Source of the DNA: Candidatus Tectimicrobiota bacterium
GTDB lineage: Bacteria > Tectomicrobia > Entotheonellia > Entotheonellales > Entotheonellaceae
Direction of reading: 5' to 3'
DNA length: 64,000 nt
Assembly (NCBI GenBank): GCA_026005175.1
Contig: BPKO01000013.1
Coordinates: 34,721 to 98,720, forward strand
In this document: positions 13,922 to 64,000 of the stretch, piece after piece
How the letters are laid out: each line of letters opens with the position of its first letter
How positions within the stretch are numbered: position 1 is the first letter of the stretch
Notes under the pieces: model-generated
What the model saw: the letters and a program-made list of their open reading frames with translations, nothing else
The model's database searches: none
What the model was told of the DNA's origin: nothing
Program-made: the position numbers and the translations under genes

Positions 13922-14509
13922 ATGACCCACGCGGTGCTCCTTGTCGACGACGAACCGCACGTGCTGGCCGGCCTGCGCCGGGCGCTGCGGCGCGAGCCGC
14001 TCGAGCTTTTTTGCGCCACTTCTGCCGAAGAGGGGTTCGTCATCCTGCACGCCCGCCACATCGACGCCGTGGTCTCCGACCAGGACATGCCGGGCATGCC
14101 CGGCACCGTTTTCCTGGCCAAAGTGCGGCAGGAGTTTCCCGACACGGTGCGCTTCATGCTCACCGGCAAGGCCACCCTGGAAGTGGCGCTGCAGGCCATC
14201 AACGAAGGCGCCATCAGCCGCTTTTTTACCAAGCCCTGCGACCACGTTGAGCTGGCCATTGCCATGCGCCAGGCGCTGCAGCACCGCGACTTGCTGGTGG
14301 CGGCCAAGCGGCTGCTTGCCGGCGTGCGGCGCCAGTCGGCAGTGCTCGAGCAGCTCGAGCGCCAGTTCCCCGGGATTACCCGGGTGCGGCGCGACCCTTC
14401 CGGTGCCGTCCTCGCCGAAGCCCAGGACGTGCCCATCGAGGAGCTGCTGCAGCAGCTGCGCGCCGAGGCGAGCCGCCTCGAGGCCCGCCTGCGCCGCTTT
14501 GATCCCTAG
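13922..14509 (+). CDS. Response regulator, receiver plus short unknown tail
   Basis: A 195-aa protein: receiver at residues 3-125 (VDDEPHVL, phospho-Asp 53 in VVSDQDMPG, FTKPCD) and a charged helical tail of about 70 residues with no recognised output domain. It starts 15 bp after the HDOD regulator and shares its FTKPC/LTKPC-type alpha4-beta5 region with the neighbours, suggesting duplication within this island. Confidence 0.85.
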   Translation: MTHAVLLVDDEPHVLAGLRRALRREPLELFCATSAEEGFVILHARHIDAVVSDQDMPGMPGTVFLAKVRQEFPDTVRFMLTGKATLEVALQAINEGAISRFFTKPCDHVELAIAMRQALQHRDLLVAAKRLLAGVRRQSAVLEQLERQFPGITRVRRDPSGAVLAEAQDVPIEELLQQLRAEASRLEARLRRFDP

Positions 14510-14595
14510 CCCGGGTGAAGGCTTACCCCTCAAGAAGCCCGGGGGGCAAGGCGGACGCGGCGTAAGCGCTGCGCAAGCGCCCGGCAGAAGCAAGG

Positions 14596-15750
14596 ATGGC
14601 TATGAGCGACGCGATTCTCTTTGTCGACGACGACGTCAACGTCCTCGAGGCATACCGCCGCGTGCTGCGGCGGCACTTTGCCATCGAAACCGCCGCCGGC
14701 GGCGCCGCCGGTTTGGCGCTGCTGGAACAAAAAGGGCCTTTTGCCGTGGTGGTTTCGGACTTGCGCATGCCGGGCATGGATGGCGTGCAATTCCTCACCG
14801 CGGTGCGGCAGCGGGCGCCCGATACGGTGCGGGTGATGCTCACCGGCCAGGCAGACATCACCGCTGCGATTGCCGCCATCAACGAAGGCCACATTTTTCG
14901 CTTCCTCACCAAGCCCTGCCCTCCCGAGCTGCTGCTCAGGGCCCTTGAGGACGCCCTGGCCCAGTACCGCCTGGTAACGGCAGAGCGCACCCTGCTGGAG
15001 CAGACCCTGCACGGCAGCGTCAAGGTGCTCACCGACGTCCTGGCGCTGGTCAACCCGGCGGCGTTTGGCCAGTCGGCACGCCTCAAGCACTACGTGCGCC
15101 ACATCAGCGAGCGGCTGGGGCTGGCCGAGCGCTGGCAGTTCGAGCTCGCCGCCATGCTCTCCCACCTGGGCTGCGTTACCCTGCCGGCCGAGACGCTGGA
15201 AAAAGTCTACGCCGGGCAGCCGCTGAGCCCCGAAGAAGAGCGCATGTTTGCCGCCCACCCCGAAGTGGGCCACGACTTGCTGCGCCACATCCCGCGCCTG
15301 GAAGGGGTGGCCCAAATGATCGCCCGCCAGCGCGAGCCCTGCGGCGCCAACGGCGCCTGCCCGCCTCTCGAGGCGCTCGATCCGGTCACTCTCGGTGCCC
15401 GCCTGCTCAAGGTGGTGCTGGCGTTCGACCAGCTGGTGGCCCGCGGCGTGCCCCACCGGCGCGCCGTGGCCGAGCTGCGCCAGCACCCCGAGGCGTACCA
15501 CCCCGCGCTGGTCGAGGCGCTGGAGGACGTCGACGCCGCCGGCACCGCCATGGTACTGCGGCTGGTCACGGTGCGCGACCTCTTCCCGGGCATGGTCCTC
15601 GACGAAGACGTGCGCACCACCAGCGGCGTCCTCGTGCTGGCCAAAGGCCACGAGGTGACCCCGGCGCTGGTACAGCGGCTGCGCAGCTTCGCCCTCAAAG
15701 CCAAAATCGTCGAGCCCTTCCGCGTCCTCGTTCCCCGCCACGACGCCTGA
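14596..15750 (+). CDS. Response regulator with degenerate HD-type domain
   Basis: A 384-aa protein. Receiver at residues 5-125 (phospho-Asp 55 in VVSDLRMPG; LTKPCPPELL). The C-terminal part keeps HD-domain texture (LAAMLSHLGCVTLP, HPEVGHDLL) but lacks the paired histidines and the GYP motif of c-di-GMP phosphodiesterases, so hydrolysis is unlikely. A small C-terminal beta region (LFPGMVLDEDVRTTSGVLVLAKG) resembles the tail seen in many receiver-HD proteins. It is the last of three consecutive receiver genes after the PAS kinase. Confidence 0.82.
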   Translation: MAMSDAILFVDDDVNVLEAYRRVLRRHFAIETAAGGAAGLALLEQKGPFAVVVSDLRMPGMDGVQFLTAVRQRAPDTVRVMLTGQADITAAIAAINEGHIFRFLTKPCPPELLLRALEDALAQYRLVTAERTLLEQTLHGSVKVLTDVLALVNPAAFGQSARLKHYVRHISERLGLAERWQFELAAMLSHLGCVTLPAETLEKVYAGQPLSPEEERMFAAHPEVGHDLLRHIPRLEGVAQMIARQREPCGANGACPPLEALDPVTLGARLLKVVLAFDQLVARGVPHRRAVAELRQHPEAYHPALVEALEDVDAAGTAMVLRLVTVRDLFPGMVLDEDVRTTSGVLVLAKGHEVTPALVQRLRSFALKAKIVEPFRVLVPRHDA

Positions 15751-56690: not shown

Positions 56691-57017
56691 CTTTCACTGT
56701 ACCAGATCGGCACCGGGGCGTCAGCCTGCCGTGGCCAGTGCTGGTACACCAGCGCAAGTAAGCGGGGCCGCACGGCGCTGCACGGCTCGCGCTCCAGCTC
56801 GCCCACCAGCGCCTTGATGTGCCGCAGCGGCAGGGCCCAGCGCCCGCGCCCGGCGGATAAACAGCAGTCGGTGCACGTCGTGCCGCGTGTACTGCCGGTA
56901 GCCGGCGGCGCTGCGTGCCGGCGCCGGCAGCACTCCTACTTGCTCGTAGTAGCGAATGGCTTTGGACGCCACACCCGTGGCGCGAGCAAGGGCGCCAATA
57001 GTCAGGGGGCACTCCAT
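56691..57017 (-). pseudogene. Truncated, frameshifted MerR-family metal regulator
   Basis: The N-terminal helix-turn-helix is intact (LTIGALARATGVASKAIRYYEQVGVLP and AGYRQYTRHDVHRLLFIRRA in parts). One extra base in a GGG run (56833-56835) breaks the frame; repaired it continues LGLPLRHIKALVGELEREPCSAVRPRLLALV (in parts) and then loses similarity at the inverted repeat. The C-terminal dimerisation helix and any later cysteines of MerR/CueR sensors are gone. It lies next to a mer-type operator (57184-57215) and was probably its regulator. Confidence 0.75.
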
Positions 57018-57183: not shown

Positions 57184-57215
57184 TTTACTCCGTACCTAGG
57201 TACGGGGATTACAAT
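57184..57215 (+). promoter_or_regulatory. Mer-type promoter/operator of the cupin-ATPase operon
   Basis: TTTACT (-35, 57184-57189), the palindrome CCGTAC-CTAG-GTACGG (57190-57205) and TACAAT (-10, 57210-57215) with a 20-bp spacer. The palindrome inside an over-long spacer is the hallmark of MerR-activated promoters, and CCGTAC-N4-GTACGG is the half-site pattern of the Tn501/Tn21 mer operators (established knowledge). Confidence 0.8.
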
Positions 57216-57796: not shown

Positions 57797-60277
57797 ATGG
57801 GCCGCTTTTCCGCGCAGGAGCTGGCGCCCCGGCAGGAGGAGGGCACCGCGGCGGCCTGCGCCGCGGGCAGCGCCAGAGTGCTGCTGAAGGTGGGCGGCAT
57901 GTCCTGCTCTTTCTGCGTCGCCAGCATCACCAAAGCGCTGACGCAGCTCGACGGGGTCCGTGAGGCGCACGTGAACCTGGCCCACGAAGAGGCCCTGGTG
58001 GTCTACGACCCGGGGCGGGTGGGGCCGGCACAGCTGCGGGCCACGCTGCAAGCGTTGGGCTACACGGTGCGCGACGCCGACAAAGCCCGCACCTTTGAAG
58101 AAGAAGAGGCCGAGCTGCGGCGCGAGCGCCACAACCTGCTGCTGGCCGCCGGCTTTGCCGCCCTGGCGGTGAGCCCCATGCTGCTCATGTGGCTCGGGGC
58201 ACTGCCGGCCGGCGCCTGGCCGCTGCTGCGCTGGCTCATGCCCACCCTGGCCCTGGCGACGGTCTTTGGCCCCGGCTGGTCGATCCTCACCATGGCCTGG
58301 GCCAGCCTGCGCCGCGGCATCCTCAACCAGCACGTGCTGCTCGAGCTGGGCGCCTTTGCCGGCCTCAGCGGCGGCTTTCTGGCCTATCTCGTTCCCACGT
58401 TCCCCCTCATGGACTTCTTCGCCGTGGCGGTCTTCGTCACCACCTACCATCTGCTTTCGGGCTACGTGTCGCTGCTGGTGCGCACCCGCAGCTCGCAGGC
58501 GGTGCGCCGGCTGCTGGCGCTGGTGCCACCCACGGCGCGCGTGCTGCGCGCGGGCCAGGAAGTGGAGGTGCCGGTGGCGGAGGTGCGCCCTGGAGAGCTG
58601 GTGCGCGTGCGGCCTGGCGAAGCGATTCCCGTAGACGGCGAGGTGGTGGAGGGCGCCTCGAGCGTGGATCAGAGCCTGGTCACCGGGGAGGCTATCCCCG
58701 AGGACAAGGGCCCCGGCGATGAAGTCATCGGCGGCGCCGTCAACCAGACCGGCACGCTGCTGGTGCGGGTGACCCGGGTGGGGGAGGAGAGCTTCCTGCA
58801 GCAGGTGGCGCGGCAGGTGGCCGAAGCCCGGGCCTTGAAACCGGGGCTGCTGGCCCTCGTCGACCGCATCCTGCAGGTCTACGTGCCGGCGGTGCTGGCT
58901 TGCGCCGGCCTCGCCGTCCTCGTCTGGACCCTGGGGGCCTGGCTGGTCACTGGTTCTCCGGCCTGGACGCGGGCGCTGTTTGCCGCGCTGGCGGTGCTGG
59001 TCATGGGCTACCCCTGCGCCCTGGGCATGGCCACGCCGCTGGCCATGATCCACGGCGGCGGCTTGGCCGCCGAGCGCGGCATCCTCATGCGCTCGGCCGC
59101 TGCCTTCCAGGTGCTGCGGGAGGTCAAGAAAGTGGTCTTCGACAAAACCGGCACCCTGACCCGCGGCCGGCCGGCGGTGGTGGCGGTGGTGCCCCTGACC
59201 GCAGAGGAAAGCGAGGTGCTGCGCCTGGCGGCAGCCGCCGAGCAGGCTTCCGAACACCCCCTGGCCAGGGCGGTGGTGGCGGCGGCGCAGGCGCGCCAGC
59301 TGGCGCTGCCGCCCCTGGAGGCCTTCCAGGCCCTCCCCGGCCAGGGGGTGGCGGCCACGGTGGCCGGACAGCGGGTGCTGGTGGGCAAGCCCCGCTTTCT
59401 TGCCGAGGCAGGCGTCGAGATGGCGCCAGCGCACCCGCCGCTCGCGGCCCTGCAAGAAGCGGGCCACACCGTGGTGGCGGTGGCTGCGGCGGGGCGGCTG
59501 CTGGGGCTGCTCGCCCTGGCCGACCCGCTCAAGGAGGACGCCCGTGAGGCGGTAGCCCGCCTGCGCGCGGCGGGCCTGGAGCCGGTGCTGCTCACCGGCG
59601 ACAACGCCCGCACGGCGCGCGCCATTGCCGCGCAGCTGGGCATCGAGGACTACCGCGCCGAGGTGCTGCCCCAGGACAAGGCGCAGGCCATACGCGACTG
59701 GCAGCGCCAGGGCCAGCGCGTGCTCATGGTGGGCGACGGCATCAACGACGCCCCGGCCCTCATGCAGGCCGACGTGGGCATGGCCATCGGCGCCGGCACC
59801 GACATCGCCATCGAGGCCGCCGACGTGGTGCTCATCGGCGAGCGGCTGACGGCGGTGGTCGATGCCTACCACATCGGCAAGGTCTCTTATCGCAAAACGG
59901 TGCAGAACCTCTGCCTTGCTTTTGCTTTCAACGGCATCGGCGTGCCCCTGGCGATGACCGGCCTGCTGCACCCGGTGTGGGCCATGGTGGCCATGGTGGC
60001 CAGCGTCACCGCGGTGCTCACCAACTCCTTTGCCGGGCGGCTGCTGCCCAAAGCGCGGCAGCCGGTAACGCAGCTGACGCTGCGCGTTCCCAACCTGCAC
60101 TGCGCCCGCTGCCTGGAGGCCATCCGCGAGGCGGTGGGCCAGCTTGCCGGGGTGGAAGCGGTGCACGGCGATGCCGCCGTGCAGACGGTAACGGTGACTT
60201 ACCGTCAGGGCGTGGTGGCGCCGGAGGCCATCCGCCGCGCCCTGGCGGCGCGCGGCTTTCCGCCCCAGGAGGAATGA
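57797..60277 (+). CDS. P1B-type heavy-metal ATPase with N- and C-terminal HMA domains
   Basis: An 826-aa soft-metal pump. N-terminal heavy-metal domain with MSCSFC (Cys 37, 40), eight membrane helices, A domain TGEAIPED, phosphorylation site DKTGTLT (Asp 449), SEHPLARA (HP motif), [10 protein letters not shown], and a second heavy-metal domain at the C terminus with LHCARC (Cys 769, 772). The membrane metal site reads YPC (405-407) where copper pumps have CPC and Zn/Cd pumps CPC or SPC, so the metal is uncertain; Cu(I), Ag(I) or Hg(II) are candidates. It lies 14 bp after the cupin gene, behind a mer-type operator. Confidence 0.9.
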
Positions 60278-61516: not shown

Positions 61517-61548
61517 TTGACTCCGTACTTAGGTACGGGGTGTATCCT
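61517..61548 (+). promoter_or_regulatory. Mer-type promoter/operator of the beta-barrel/UxxU/permease operon
   Basis: TTGACT (-35, 61517-61522), CCGTAC-TTAG-GTACGG (61523-61538) and TATCCT (-10, 61543-61548) with a 20-bp spacer. TTGACTCCGTAC followed by GTACGG is nearly identical to the -35/operator block of classical mer operons. Confidence 0.85.
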
Positions 61549-61614: not shown

Positions 61615-62516
61615 ATGGCACGAGGGCTTTTCGAGGGTCTCTCCTTGGTACGGCCGAGCCGTCTTGCAAGGGACCTGGTGGTGCTGCTGCTGGTGGCCGT
61701 GTCGGGGGCGACGGCAGCGCCCCTCTTCGGCGTTTCACCCCGCACCCAGTTCTTCCTGGGGTCGGTGGTGCGCAGCTTTGGCCTCTTTGGCCGCAGCACC
61801 GACAGTGGCGTCACGCTGGAGGCCTGGGCAGCGCCGCTGGTGCTTTCCTACGCCCTGCAGACCGACATGACGCTGACGCTGGGGGTGCCCTTTTTGGTGA
61901 AGCGGCTGGAAACACCGGCGGGCGACCGGCAGCGCGAGGGGGTCGGGGATCTGAATCTGACCTGGAAGTACACCTTCCTCCGCCGCGATCGGCCCTTTGC
62001 GCGGGACCAGGCTGCTCTCCTGGTGGGACTGGAGCTCCCTACGGGAGCGCTCGACCGGGAGGCGCCGCCGCTGAGCCTGGGCTCGCGCTCCCTCGACGGC
62101 ATCCTCGGCGCTGCCGTAGGACACACCACCCGCCACTTTAGTATCGAAGGGGGGCTGGTTTACAAGGCCAATACGGAAGCCAACGACTTCCGCTTTGGCA
62201 ACACGCTCAGCTATGACCTCTACCTCGCCTACCAGGGGCCTATCCCAACTTCCCCACCCCGGGGCTCTCCCAGCTCAACTTTTCCGTGGAGCTCAACGGC
62301 CGCACGGCGGAGAAGAACGAGCGGGAGAGAAGAGAGATCCCGAGCACCGGCGGCACCGTCGTCTTTCTCTCCCCGGGGATCCAGTATATCGTCGGGCCGA
62401 CCCTGCTCTTTGAGGCCGGGGTGCAGCTCCCCATCGTGCAGGACTTGCCGCCGGGCGCCCTCGCGCCCGACTTCAACGTCCTCTTCGGGCTGCGCTGGAT
62501 CTTTGCCGGGGTGTAG
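61615..62516 (+). CDS. Outer-membrane beta-barrel protein (MetA-pathway-of-phenol type), one frameshift
   Basis: About 300 aa when repaired. Signal segment (about residues 15-35, ending ATAAP), then repeated amphipathic strands typical of the PF13557-type outer-membrane family: TDSGVTLEAWAAPLVLSYAL, GVGDLNLTWKYTFLRRDRPF, LLVGLELPTGA and the C-terminal FNVLFGLRWIFAGV. The frame breaks in GGGG at about 62236-62239 (repair gives YQGAYPNFPTPGLSQLNFSVELNG in parts). GAGGAGGGAGAG precedes the ATG. As first gene behind the mer-type operator it may pass metal or ligand through the outer membrane (inference). Confidence 0.75.
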
Positions 62517-62591: not shown

Positions 62592-63095
62592 ATGAACAGG
62601 CGCATGCAGCAAGTCGCTCTCTTCATCGGGCTGGCGCTGGTGCTGGCCTTGCCGCCGCTGGCCCTGGCGCAGATCACCCGGGTGCAGATGGGCGTCGATG
62701 GCATGATTTGACCCGTCTGAGCTTATGGGGTCCAAAAGGCCCTCTCCCGCCTGGACGGCGTGGACAAAGTCAAAGTCAGCTTGCAAGAAGCCCGCGCAGA
62801 CATCCAGCTCAAGGAGGGACAGCGCCTGGAGCCGCAGAAGCTGCGCCAGGCCGTGGTCGGTGCCGGGTTTACCCCCACCTGGATCCGCTTCGAGGGGGTG
62901 GGACAGCTCATCGTCCGCAACGGCGGCCTGGCCTTCAAGGTCCAGGGCACGGAGCAGCTCATCCCCCTGGCCAGCGATGAGAAGGCCAGGGCGCTGCAGC
63001 AGGCGGTGGCGCAGGAAGGCCGGCGGGTCTTTGTCGTGGGCCTGATCCCGAAGGGGCAGGAAACGGCGCGCGTCGAGCGGTTTGAAGTCCGCTAG
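62592..63095 (+). CDS. Candidate selenoprotein: exported HMA/MerP-like protein with UxxU metal site
   Basis: 167 codons with in-frame UGA at residues 40 (62709-62711) and 43 (62718-62720). Signal peptide (about 1-27, ending ALAQ), then VQMGVDGMI-U-PV-U-AYGVQKALSRLDGVDKVKVSL: the heavy-metal-associated motif GMxCxxC with both cysteines replaced by UGA. Coding texture continues without indel through a full HMA domain (to about 100) and a C-terminal extension (ending ETARVERFEVR). A purely truncated product would be 39 residues of no use. Selenocysteine at both metal ligands would give very high affinity for Hg(II) or Cu(I). The companion permease starts 25 bp downstream. A Cys-to-UGA double mutation by chance is unlikely but must be excluded. 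Confidence 0.82.
62748..62760 (+). promoter_or_regulatory. Possible SECIS hairpin of the UxxU gene
   Basis: CGCC-UGGAC-GGCG, a 4-bp stem with G at loop position 2, starting 27 bases after the second UGA. A second hairpin (GGGGUCC/GGCCCUC with loop AAAA, 62727-62744) is closer but lacks a GU loop. Weaker than the hairpins of the other two candidates. Confidence 0.4.
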
Positions 63096-63120: not shown

Positions 63121-64000
63121 GTGTACACGCTGTTCGTCAAGCTGGCCCAGTTCCTCAACGGCCAGCAGGCCTTTTTTGCCGACTGGTTCTTCTGGACGCT
63201 GGCCATTTTCCGCCATCCCTTTGTCATGTGGCCTTTCCCCCTGATGACCTATGGGGCCTTTTTCGGCTCGGCCTTGCTCCAGGCCTTTGCCGCTCCGCGC
63301 TGGCGGGCTCGGCTGCTGGCTCGCACCGCTGCCCGCCGCACCGCCGCGTGGCCCGCCCTTGCGCTGGGCGTCACCGGCCCCCCCGACTGGCGGACCAACC
63401 TGGCGACGTTTGAGGCGCTGCTGCGGCGGGGGGTGCCTCCGGCTGCGGCCTTCACGTATCTCCTCTCCAGCTACAACCTGACGCTTTACTTCTTCGTCCT
63501 CATCACGGTGAACAACGGCCCGCAGCTCACCCTTGGCCACCTCATCGCCGTCTTGCTGATGATCGCCCTTGTCCGCCTGGGGCTACGCTGGGTTGTCCCC
63601 CAGGGGCCCTTGTGGGGCCAGGCGCCGGTCTTGCGGGCGGGTACCTCCCCGCAAGAGGCCCCGTCCCCGCCCGCGAGCTCGCCGGCTCGCCTGGCGTCCT
63701 GGCGCGCCTGGCTGGGTGCCGTGTGGGCCCTGGGGCGAGACGTCAAAGTGCTTTTTGTCCCGCTGCTGCTGGGGCTGCTCCTGGCCGGCTTCCTGGCCGC
63801 CTGGGGCCGCAGCGAGAGCTTTGTCGAGCTGCACCTGGGCGGCGGGGTGGCGGGGCAGCTCCTCAATGCCCTCATCGGCCCGCTCCTGGGCAGCGTGACT
63901 TTCATGGTGCCCGTGCTGAACATCTTCGTGGGGGCCTGGCTGTGGAAGACGGAGTTTCTGGCCTATGCCGGCCTGGTTGGCTTTTTCCTGGCCACCGTTT
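63121..64000 (+). CDS. Polytopic permease, UPF0718/ArsP-like (cut by window end)
   Basis: Open from GTG at 63121 (CTGGAGGAGG upstream) to the window edge, at least 293 residues without a stop. About seven hydrophobic segments in two blocks separated by a polar loop (VLRAGTSPQEAPSPPASSPARLA in parts). It resembles DUF318/UPF0718-type permeases that move metalloids and are often paired with an HMA domain. Here that partner is the UxxU protein just upstream. Substrate unknown; mercury or organometal is inferred from the mer-type operator. Confidence 0.7.
   Translation, partial: MYTLFVKLAQFLNGQQAFFADWFFWTLAIFRHPFVMWPFPLMTYGAFFGSALLQAFAAPRWRARLLARTAARRTAAWPALALGVTGPPDWRTNLATFEALLRRGVPPAAAFTYLLSSYNLTLYFFVLITVNNGPQLTLGHLIAVLLMIALVRLGLRWVVPQGPLWGQAPVLRAGTSPQEAPSPPASSPARLASWRAWLGAVWALGRDVKVLFVPLLLGLLLAGFLAAWGRSESFVELHLGGGVAGQLLNALIGPLLGSVTFMVPVLNIFVGAWLWKTEFLAYAGLVGFFLATV

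Follow-up and report, generated by a model that had tools for sequence, protein, structure and literature searches.

A MerP-like metal-binding protein with UGA at both metal-ligand codons and two SECIS-like hairpins downstream in a Candidatus Tectimicrobiota genome

A gene that very probably encodes an exported, MerP-like HMA metallochaperone with selenocysteine as both metal-ligand residues (UxxU) was discovered in the genome of a Candidatus Tectimicrobiota bacterium. It lies near the end of a 64,000-nucleotide stretch of contig BPKO01000013.1, the whole of which is referred to here as the window. The predicted product continues behind the HMA domain into an OB-like domain and would bind a soft metal, and each of the two UGA codons appears to have a hairpin of its own. 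The features of the gene, in window positions, are as follows.

62592 to 63095, + strand: reading frame of an exported HMA protein of 167 amino acids, with two UGA codons read as selenocysteine (U40 and U43)
62592 to 62669, + strand: hydrophobic N-terminal export signal (PPLALA/Q), judged by eye; low pLDDT at residues 1 to 24
62709 to 62711, + strand: UGA codon 1, the first metal-ligand column
62718 to 62720, + strand: UGA codon 2, the second metal-ligand column
62727 to 62743, + strand: SECIS-like hairpin A (GGGGUC-CAAAA-GGCCCU), apical loop 21 nt after UGA 1
62746 to 62762, + strand: SECIS-like hairpin B (CCCGCC-UGGAC-GGCGUG), apical loop UGGAC 31 nt after UGA 2
62883 to 63092, + strand: C-terminal, OB-like beta-barrel domain, from an AlphaFold2 model and fold comparison

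The first-pass annotation had proposed that both ligand cysteines of an HMA motif are encoded by UGA in a frame that is otherwise intact and free of indels, and our analysis agrees on both points. In frame +1, the TGA codons at 62709 and 62718 are the only in-frame stops before the terminal TAG at 63093, no indel breaks the frame, and the GC contents of the three codon positions (0.73, 0.40, and 0.86) are coding-like. Two premature stops would fall on exactly the two ligand codons out of 167 by chance about once in 13,900 cases, a figure calculated before counting the eleven homologues with both UGAs described below. With cysteine substituted for U, the protein scores 40.4 bits against the Pfam HMA model (cut-off, 24.8). 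Its hydrophobic N terminus, also found in the homologues, is followed by the HMA domain with the loop GMI-U-PV-U-AYGVQKAL and then by the C-terminal extension. Alignment to MerP, CopZ, and other HMA homologues had been suggested as a check; both UGAs align with the two ligand cysteine columns of the HMA domains of MerP, CopZ, and ATP7A/B, including those of solved structures, and CxxC homologues exist, one of which (L113) carries the C-terminal extension. An AlphaFold2 model of the protein (mean pLDDT, 86) has the HMA fold, and its best match in the PDB is MerP (1osd; TM score, 0.83 by target length). Modeled alone, the C-terminal extension has a pLDDT of 91 and a resemblance to the OB fold that is weak by E value and consistent by kind.

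Orthologues with UGA in the same columns, which the first-pass annotation had recommended looking for, were found. The search covered Candidatus Methylomirabilota and diverse other genomes, and two genomes outside the set from that phylum gave members. Twelve sequences of this type (AYG type, after the motif that follows the second ligand) have UxxU, counting that of the window, and come from nine genomes; the eleven further sequences, from eight other genomes, are mostly from independent assemblies. Those of two Candidatus Methylomirabilota contigs, L053 and L054, are full-length homologues with 62 to 66% identity and UGA at both positions, and the lowest identity to the window protein among the double-UGA homologues is 41%. 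In the other members of the AYG family, the ligand columns read CxxU (six sequences), UxxC (one sequence), or CxxC (six sequences). A single origin of each state agrees with the maximum-likelihood tree, in which UxxU has moderate support (76% of bootstrap trees).

The gene was absent from the close kin of the host that were searched (four genomes, three belonging to a single family and the fourth to the same class), and the nearest protein relatives of the window protein are in Candidatus Methylomirabilota, so that the gene may have been acquired by transfer. The viral contigs searched contained no relative of the window protein, and the plasmids searched gave generic HMA matches only. Directly 3' of the UxxU gene of L053 is another HMA frame (L053:7630-7962) with CKGU, that is, Cys and then UGA. 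Many HMA proteins with a single ligand as UGA were seen in Methylomirabilota and elsewhere (CxxU in L076 to L079, L084, and L090; UxxC in L080, L082, L083, and L127), and most of these share a hairpin with a GGA loop 32 nt after the first codon.

A search of the genome for selA, selB, selC, and selD had also been advised, on the grounds that a lack of selenocysteine machinery would speak against the proposal, and all four were found: selA (638 bits), selB (392 bits), selD (379 bits), and a tRNA-Sec with the anticodon UCA. The host selD has an in-frame UGA of its own in the active-site motif CAGUASK (CAG-U-ASK), a well-known Sec position, and it is an internal positive control for Sec decoding. 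SelB was found over the cut-off in the tested genomes with UGA forms, except G172 and G289. UxxU genes are present in both of these genomes (L130 and L133 in G172; L132 in G289), and the absence of a SelB match over the cut-off is possibly due to incomplete assemblies.

Two explanations that dispense with selenocysteine were considered and rejected. The gene could be a pseudogene, or the UGAs could be sequencing or assembly errors, in which case they are undecoded and the gene is dead or misread. Frameshifts do occur in this assembly, in the genes for the beta-barrel, for MerR, and for a MerA-like protein that are described below, but the errors seen in it are indels and not substitutions, and the remaining frame is intact and conserved up to the last residues. 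Because the same UGAs recur at the same codons in independently assembled genomes, they are not sequencing errors; the double-UGA homologues refute this explanation, whose probability we regard as negligible. Hardly less improbable is a reading of UGA as Cys or Trp by a reassigned code or a suppressor tRNA, which the open frame would fit and nothing else does. UGA is the normal stop of other genes, such as that of the P1B ATPase in the window (60275 to 60277), which rules out a genome-wide change of the code. The full Sec machinery with a Sec-containing SelD, the exchange of Cys and Sec among the homologues, and the SECIS-like hairpins adjoining the codons also argue against reassignment. We infer that selenocysteine is inserted at both UGAs of the window gene.

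The hairpins are conserved at the level of synonymous codons. The codons of fully conserved residues at +6, +10, +14, +16, and +17 from UGA 1, which make up hairpins A and B, are identical in 80 to 100% of sequence pairs, compared with 22 to 64% for nearly all other such codons, the exception being one Lys codon (Mann-Whitney P = 0.0003; hairpin P values are optimistic because the sequences are related). In a comparison of ten sequences, each hairpin has a single double change that is fully compensatory, and none is seen when the partners are slid. Among 25 AYG homologues, the energy of hairpin A is -8.0 kcal/mol or lower in all 13 sequences with UGA 1, between -5.2 and -7.0 kcal/mol in the six CxxU sequences, and weaker than -4 kcal/mol in CxxC sequences, while hairpin B is at -7.7 kcal/mol or lower in 18 of 18 sequences with UGA 2. 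The UxxC homologue, the only one with just the first UGA, keeps hairpin A and lacks hairpin B (-0.2 kcal/mol), a comparison that consists of one sequence on a long branch of the tree. Some CxxC sequences have a B-like hairpin of down to -8.5 kcal/mol by chance. Of 70 CxxC HMA controls of equal GC content, 2.9% reach the level of hairpin A, 5.7% reach that of hairpin B, and 0% reach both together, and both hairpins occur in at most 0.2% of synonymous reshuffles. Both are clearly conserved and are better formed in the relatives than in the window, where a C-U mismatch shortens the strict core of hairpin B to 4 bp.

According to the published rules for bacterial SECIS elements (bSECIS), the loop lies 16 to 37 nt after the UGA and has a G in its first two positions (PMC13188914). 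The loop of hairpin A is 21 nt from UGA 1 and 12 nt from UGA 2, and that of hairpin B is 40 nt from UGA 1 and 31 nt from UGA 2; by the spacing rule, hairpin A is therefore in range of UGA 1 only and hairpin B is in range of UGA 2 only. In 5 of the 12 UxxU sequences, that of the window (CAAAA loop) and four others, neither of the first two loop bases of hairpin A is a G, which breaks one rule of the published model. We propose that SelB and tRNA-Sec would read each UGA with the aid of its own downstream hairpin, with hairpin A serving UGA 1 and hairpin B serving UGA 2. Once translation has advanced by nine bases and reached UGA 2, hairpin A would be too close and would be melted, so that hairpin B would take over. 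We give about even chances to this proposal in its full form, in which two dedicated tandem SECIS elements hand the ribosome from one hairpin to the other across UGAs nine bases apart, and in which the product is an exported diselenol carrier of mercury or another soft metal that belongs to a subfamily separate from the known UxxU proteins. It is conceivable, though we think it rather unlikely, that one SECIS serves both UGAs and that the second conserved hairpin is incidental. The NF041115-like UxxU subfamily offers a parallel, with one hairpin whose GG-starting loop is 32 nt from UGA 1 and 23 nt from UGA 2 and thus in range of both. In the window subfamily, by contrast, each hairpin has only one of the UGAs within range, both hairpins show the synonymous-site conservation described above, and the UxxC homologue has hairpin A without hairpin B.

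The gene lies among genes for metal transporters and metal regulators, and the neighboring features of the window are as follows.

56835 to 57005, - strand: MerR-family regulator, in frame for the first ~57 amino acids only
57190 to 57205, + strand: second MerR-type dyad, CCGTACCTAGGTACGG, before the ATPase operon
57797 to 60277, + strand: heavy-metal ATPase of the P1B type, with an HMA domain at either terminus and YPC as its membrane motif
61517 to 61548, + strand: MerR-family promoter/operator (TTGACT, CCGTACTTAGGTACGG dyad, TATCCT)
61615 to 62516, + strand: gene for an outer-membrane beta-barrel (PF13557), which opens the operon and is interrupted by a frameshift near 62241
63121 to 64000, + strand: ArsP_1-type permease (PF03773), cut by the contig end

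The gene had been described as standing behind a mercury-type operator, a claim that holds for a MerR-type operator and is inexact as to its place. A MerR-type dyad (CCGTAC-TTAG-GTACGG) is present at 61523 to 61538, but this is ~1.05 kb upstream of 62592, with the beta-barrel gene, the first of the operon, in between, and an operator directly before 62592 was thus rejected. Nearly all relatives whose flanking DNA reaches far enough keep the beta-barrel neighbor, and genes for MerR, P1B ATPase, and permease recur in the cassettes of the relatives. For the cassette MerR regulators of L053, L054, and L096, the best fit is to the Hg-responsive MerR model (141 to 145 bits versus a cut-off of 150.85), CadR/CueR fits the cassette regulator of L106 better than MerR does, and the window ATPase fits copper/heavy-metal families. 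The membrane metal site of P1B ATPases is usually CPC/CPx or SPC/TPC; the cassette P1B ATPases of the window (57797 to 60277), L053, L054, L096, L098, and L106 have YPC at this site. The frameshifts in this assembly, in the beta-barrel gene (61615 to 62516), the MerR gene (56835 to 57005), and a MerA-like gene on another contig (L009, about 14033 to 15440), are either indel errors or real decay.

A second UxxU protein is encoded in the same genome. Protein P0002 of contig C6 (L009:9800-10156, corresponding to C6:13299-13655) is a lipoprotein-like HMA protein with a double UGA, GMS-U-GS-U, and scores 95.2 bits against NF041115 (cut-off, 95). Its neighbors are a MerR-family regulator, a MerT-like protein, and a glutaredoxin-like frame. 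This last frame (L009:9222-9473) has a UGA at the first Cys of its motif (UGAC), and UxxC is kept in four other loci. A MerA-like reductase is found ~3.9 kb downstream of the C6 UxxU gene in two frames, with the end KLSCCAG; the fragments score 228 and 282 bits, compared with a whole-protein cut-off of 454 for MerA, and the frameshift is probably an assembly indel. The mer-type locus around this protein suggests that the host organism probably handles mercury.

As to function, the mature window protein would most likely bind a soft metal by two selenolates outside the cytoplasmic membrane. It would hand this metal over to the transporters encoded alongside it (the P1B ATPase, the ArsP-type permease, and the outer-membrane barrel) or receive it from them. 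Selenols bind Hg(II) more tightly than thiols, and Hg(II), favored by the mer context, is the most likely candidate metal. A double selenoprotein for another soft metal, such as Cu(I), Ag(I), Cd(II), or Pb(II), is a less probable alternative that nevertheless deserves to be taken seriously: the match to HMA domains of copper transporters is about as good as that to MerP, the adjoining ATPase fits copper and general heavy-metal families, and one cassette regulator (L106) is CadR/CueR-like. Against this, MerP is the best fold match, three of the cassette regulators (L053, L054, and L096) fit the Hg-responsive model best, and the sister UxxU protein is found near MerT-like and MerA-like genes. 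It is improbable that the U-x-x-U motif has a redox role instead, cycling between diselenol and diselenide, for example, in an extracytoplasmic reductase that carries no metal. UxxU does occur in peroxiredoxin-like oxidoreductases (PMC2398784, PMC13188914), and a Sec glutaredoxin adjoins the UxxU gene in a related locus, but the fold is that of an HMA metal-binding domain with a GMxUxxU loop, and the genes around it are for metal transport and metal-responsive regulation.

Predicted selenoproteins are for the most part regarded as redox proteins. The putative carrier described here seems to use selenium for holding metal, and does so on either side of the classic metal-binding loop. The occurrence of CC, CU, UC, and UU in one fold constitutes a clean natural set for what Sec gains in metal capture and, because the hairpins come and go with their proposed UGA partners, a natural experiment on the bacterial decoding of UGAs that lie only nine bases from each other. 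Standard annotation would miss or truncate such genes.

HMA proteins with two Sec residues have been predicted before. NF041115 is listed as a UxxU metal-binding (seleno)protein with two Sec residues in a 2026 review (PMC13188914), the same type was named earlier as a "putative mercuric reductase" with UxxU (PMC9312934), and the GOS survey lists two MerP selenoprotein sequences, with the motif not given (PMC2398784). The window protein shares with NF041115 the HMA domain and the replacement of both ligand Cys residues by Sec in Sec-decoding bacteria. It differs in scoring 49.2 bits (cut-off, 95) over positions 1 to 48 of the 74 profile positions only, in having the OB-like C-terminal domain, the AYGVQK motif, and another cassette, and in belonging to a subfamily with two hairpins, whereas the NF041115-like type has one. 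With MerP (TIGR02052; structures 1afi and 1osd), which is the top structural match, it has in common the HMA domain, preceded in the window protein by a putative export signal judged by eye, and the position of the GMxCxxC loop; it differs in its score (40.9 bits; cut-off, 92.55), in having Sec for both Cys residues and an extra C-terminal domain, and in its partner genes: in place of MerT, these encode the P1B ATPase, the ArsP-type permease, and the barrel. The MerT/CopZ fusion-like heavy metal transport selenoprotein (NF045683) is likewise an HMA-containing selenoprotein tied to heavy-metal transport, but it is fused to a MerT-like membrane part, and the window protein matches its HMA region only (26 bits versus 375). 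Judged by sequence, the window protein represents a distinct, extended, and putatively exported subfamily that falls below the cut-offs of NF041115 and MerP, and an earlier published description of exactly this subfamily is possible. An arrangement of one hairpin per UGA was not found described in the literature covered, with several key papers outside that coverage, and the tandem pair of conserved SECIS-like hairpins is apparently new. As in the bSECIS model (PMC13188914), there is a stem-loop just 3' of the UGA within the coding frame, with a loop 16 to 37 nt after the UGA; in contrast to that model, the window has two tandem hairpins for two close UGAs, and its hairpin A is without the usual loop G.
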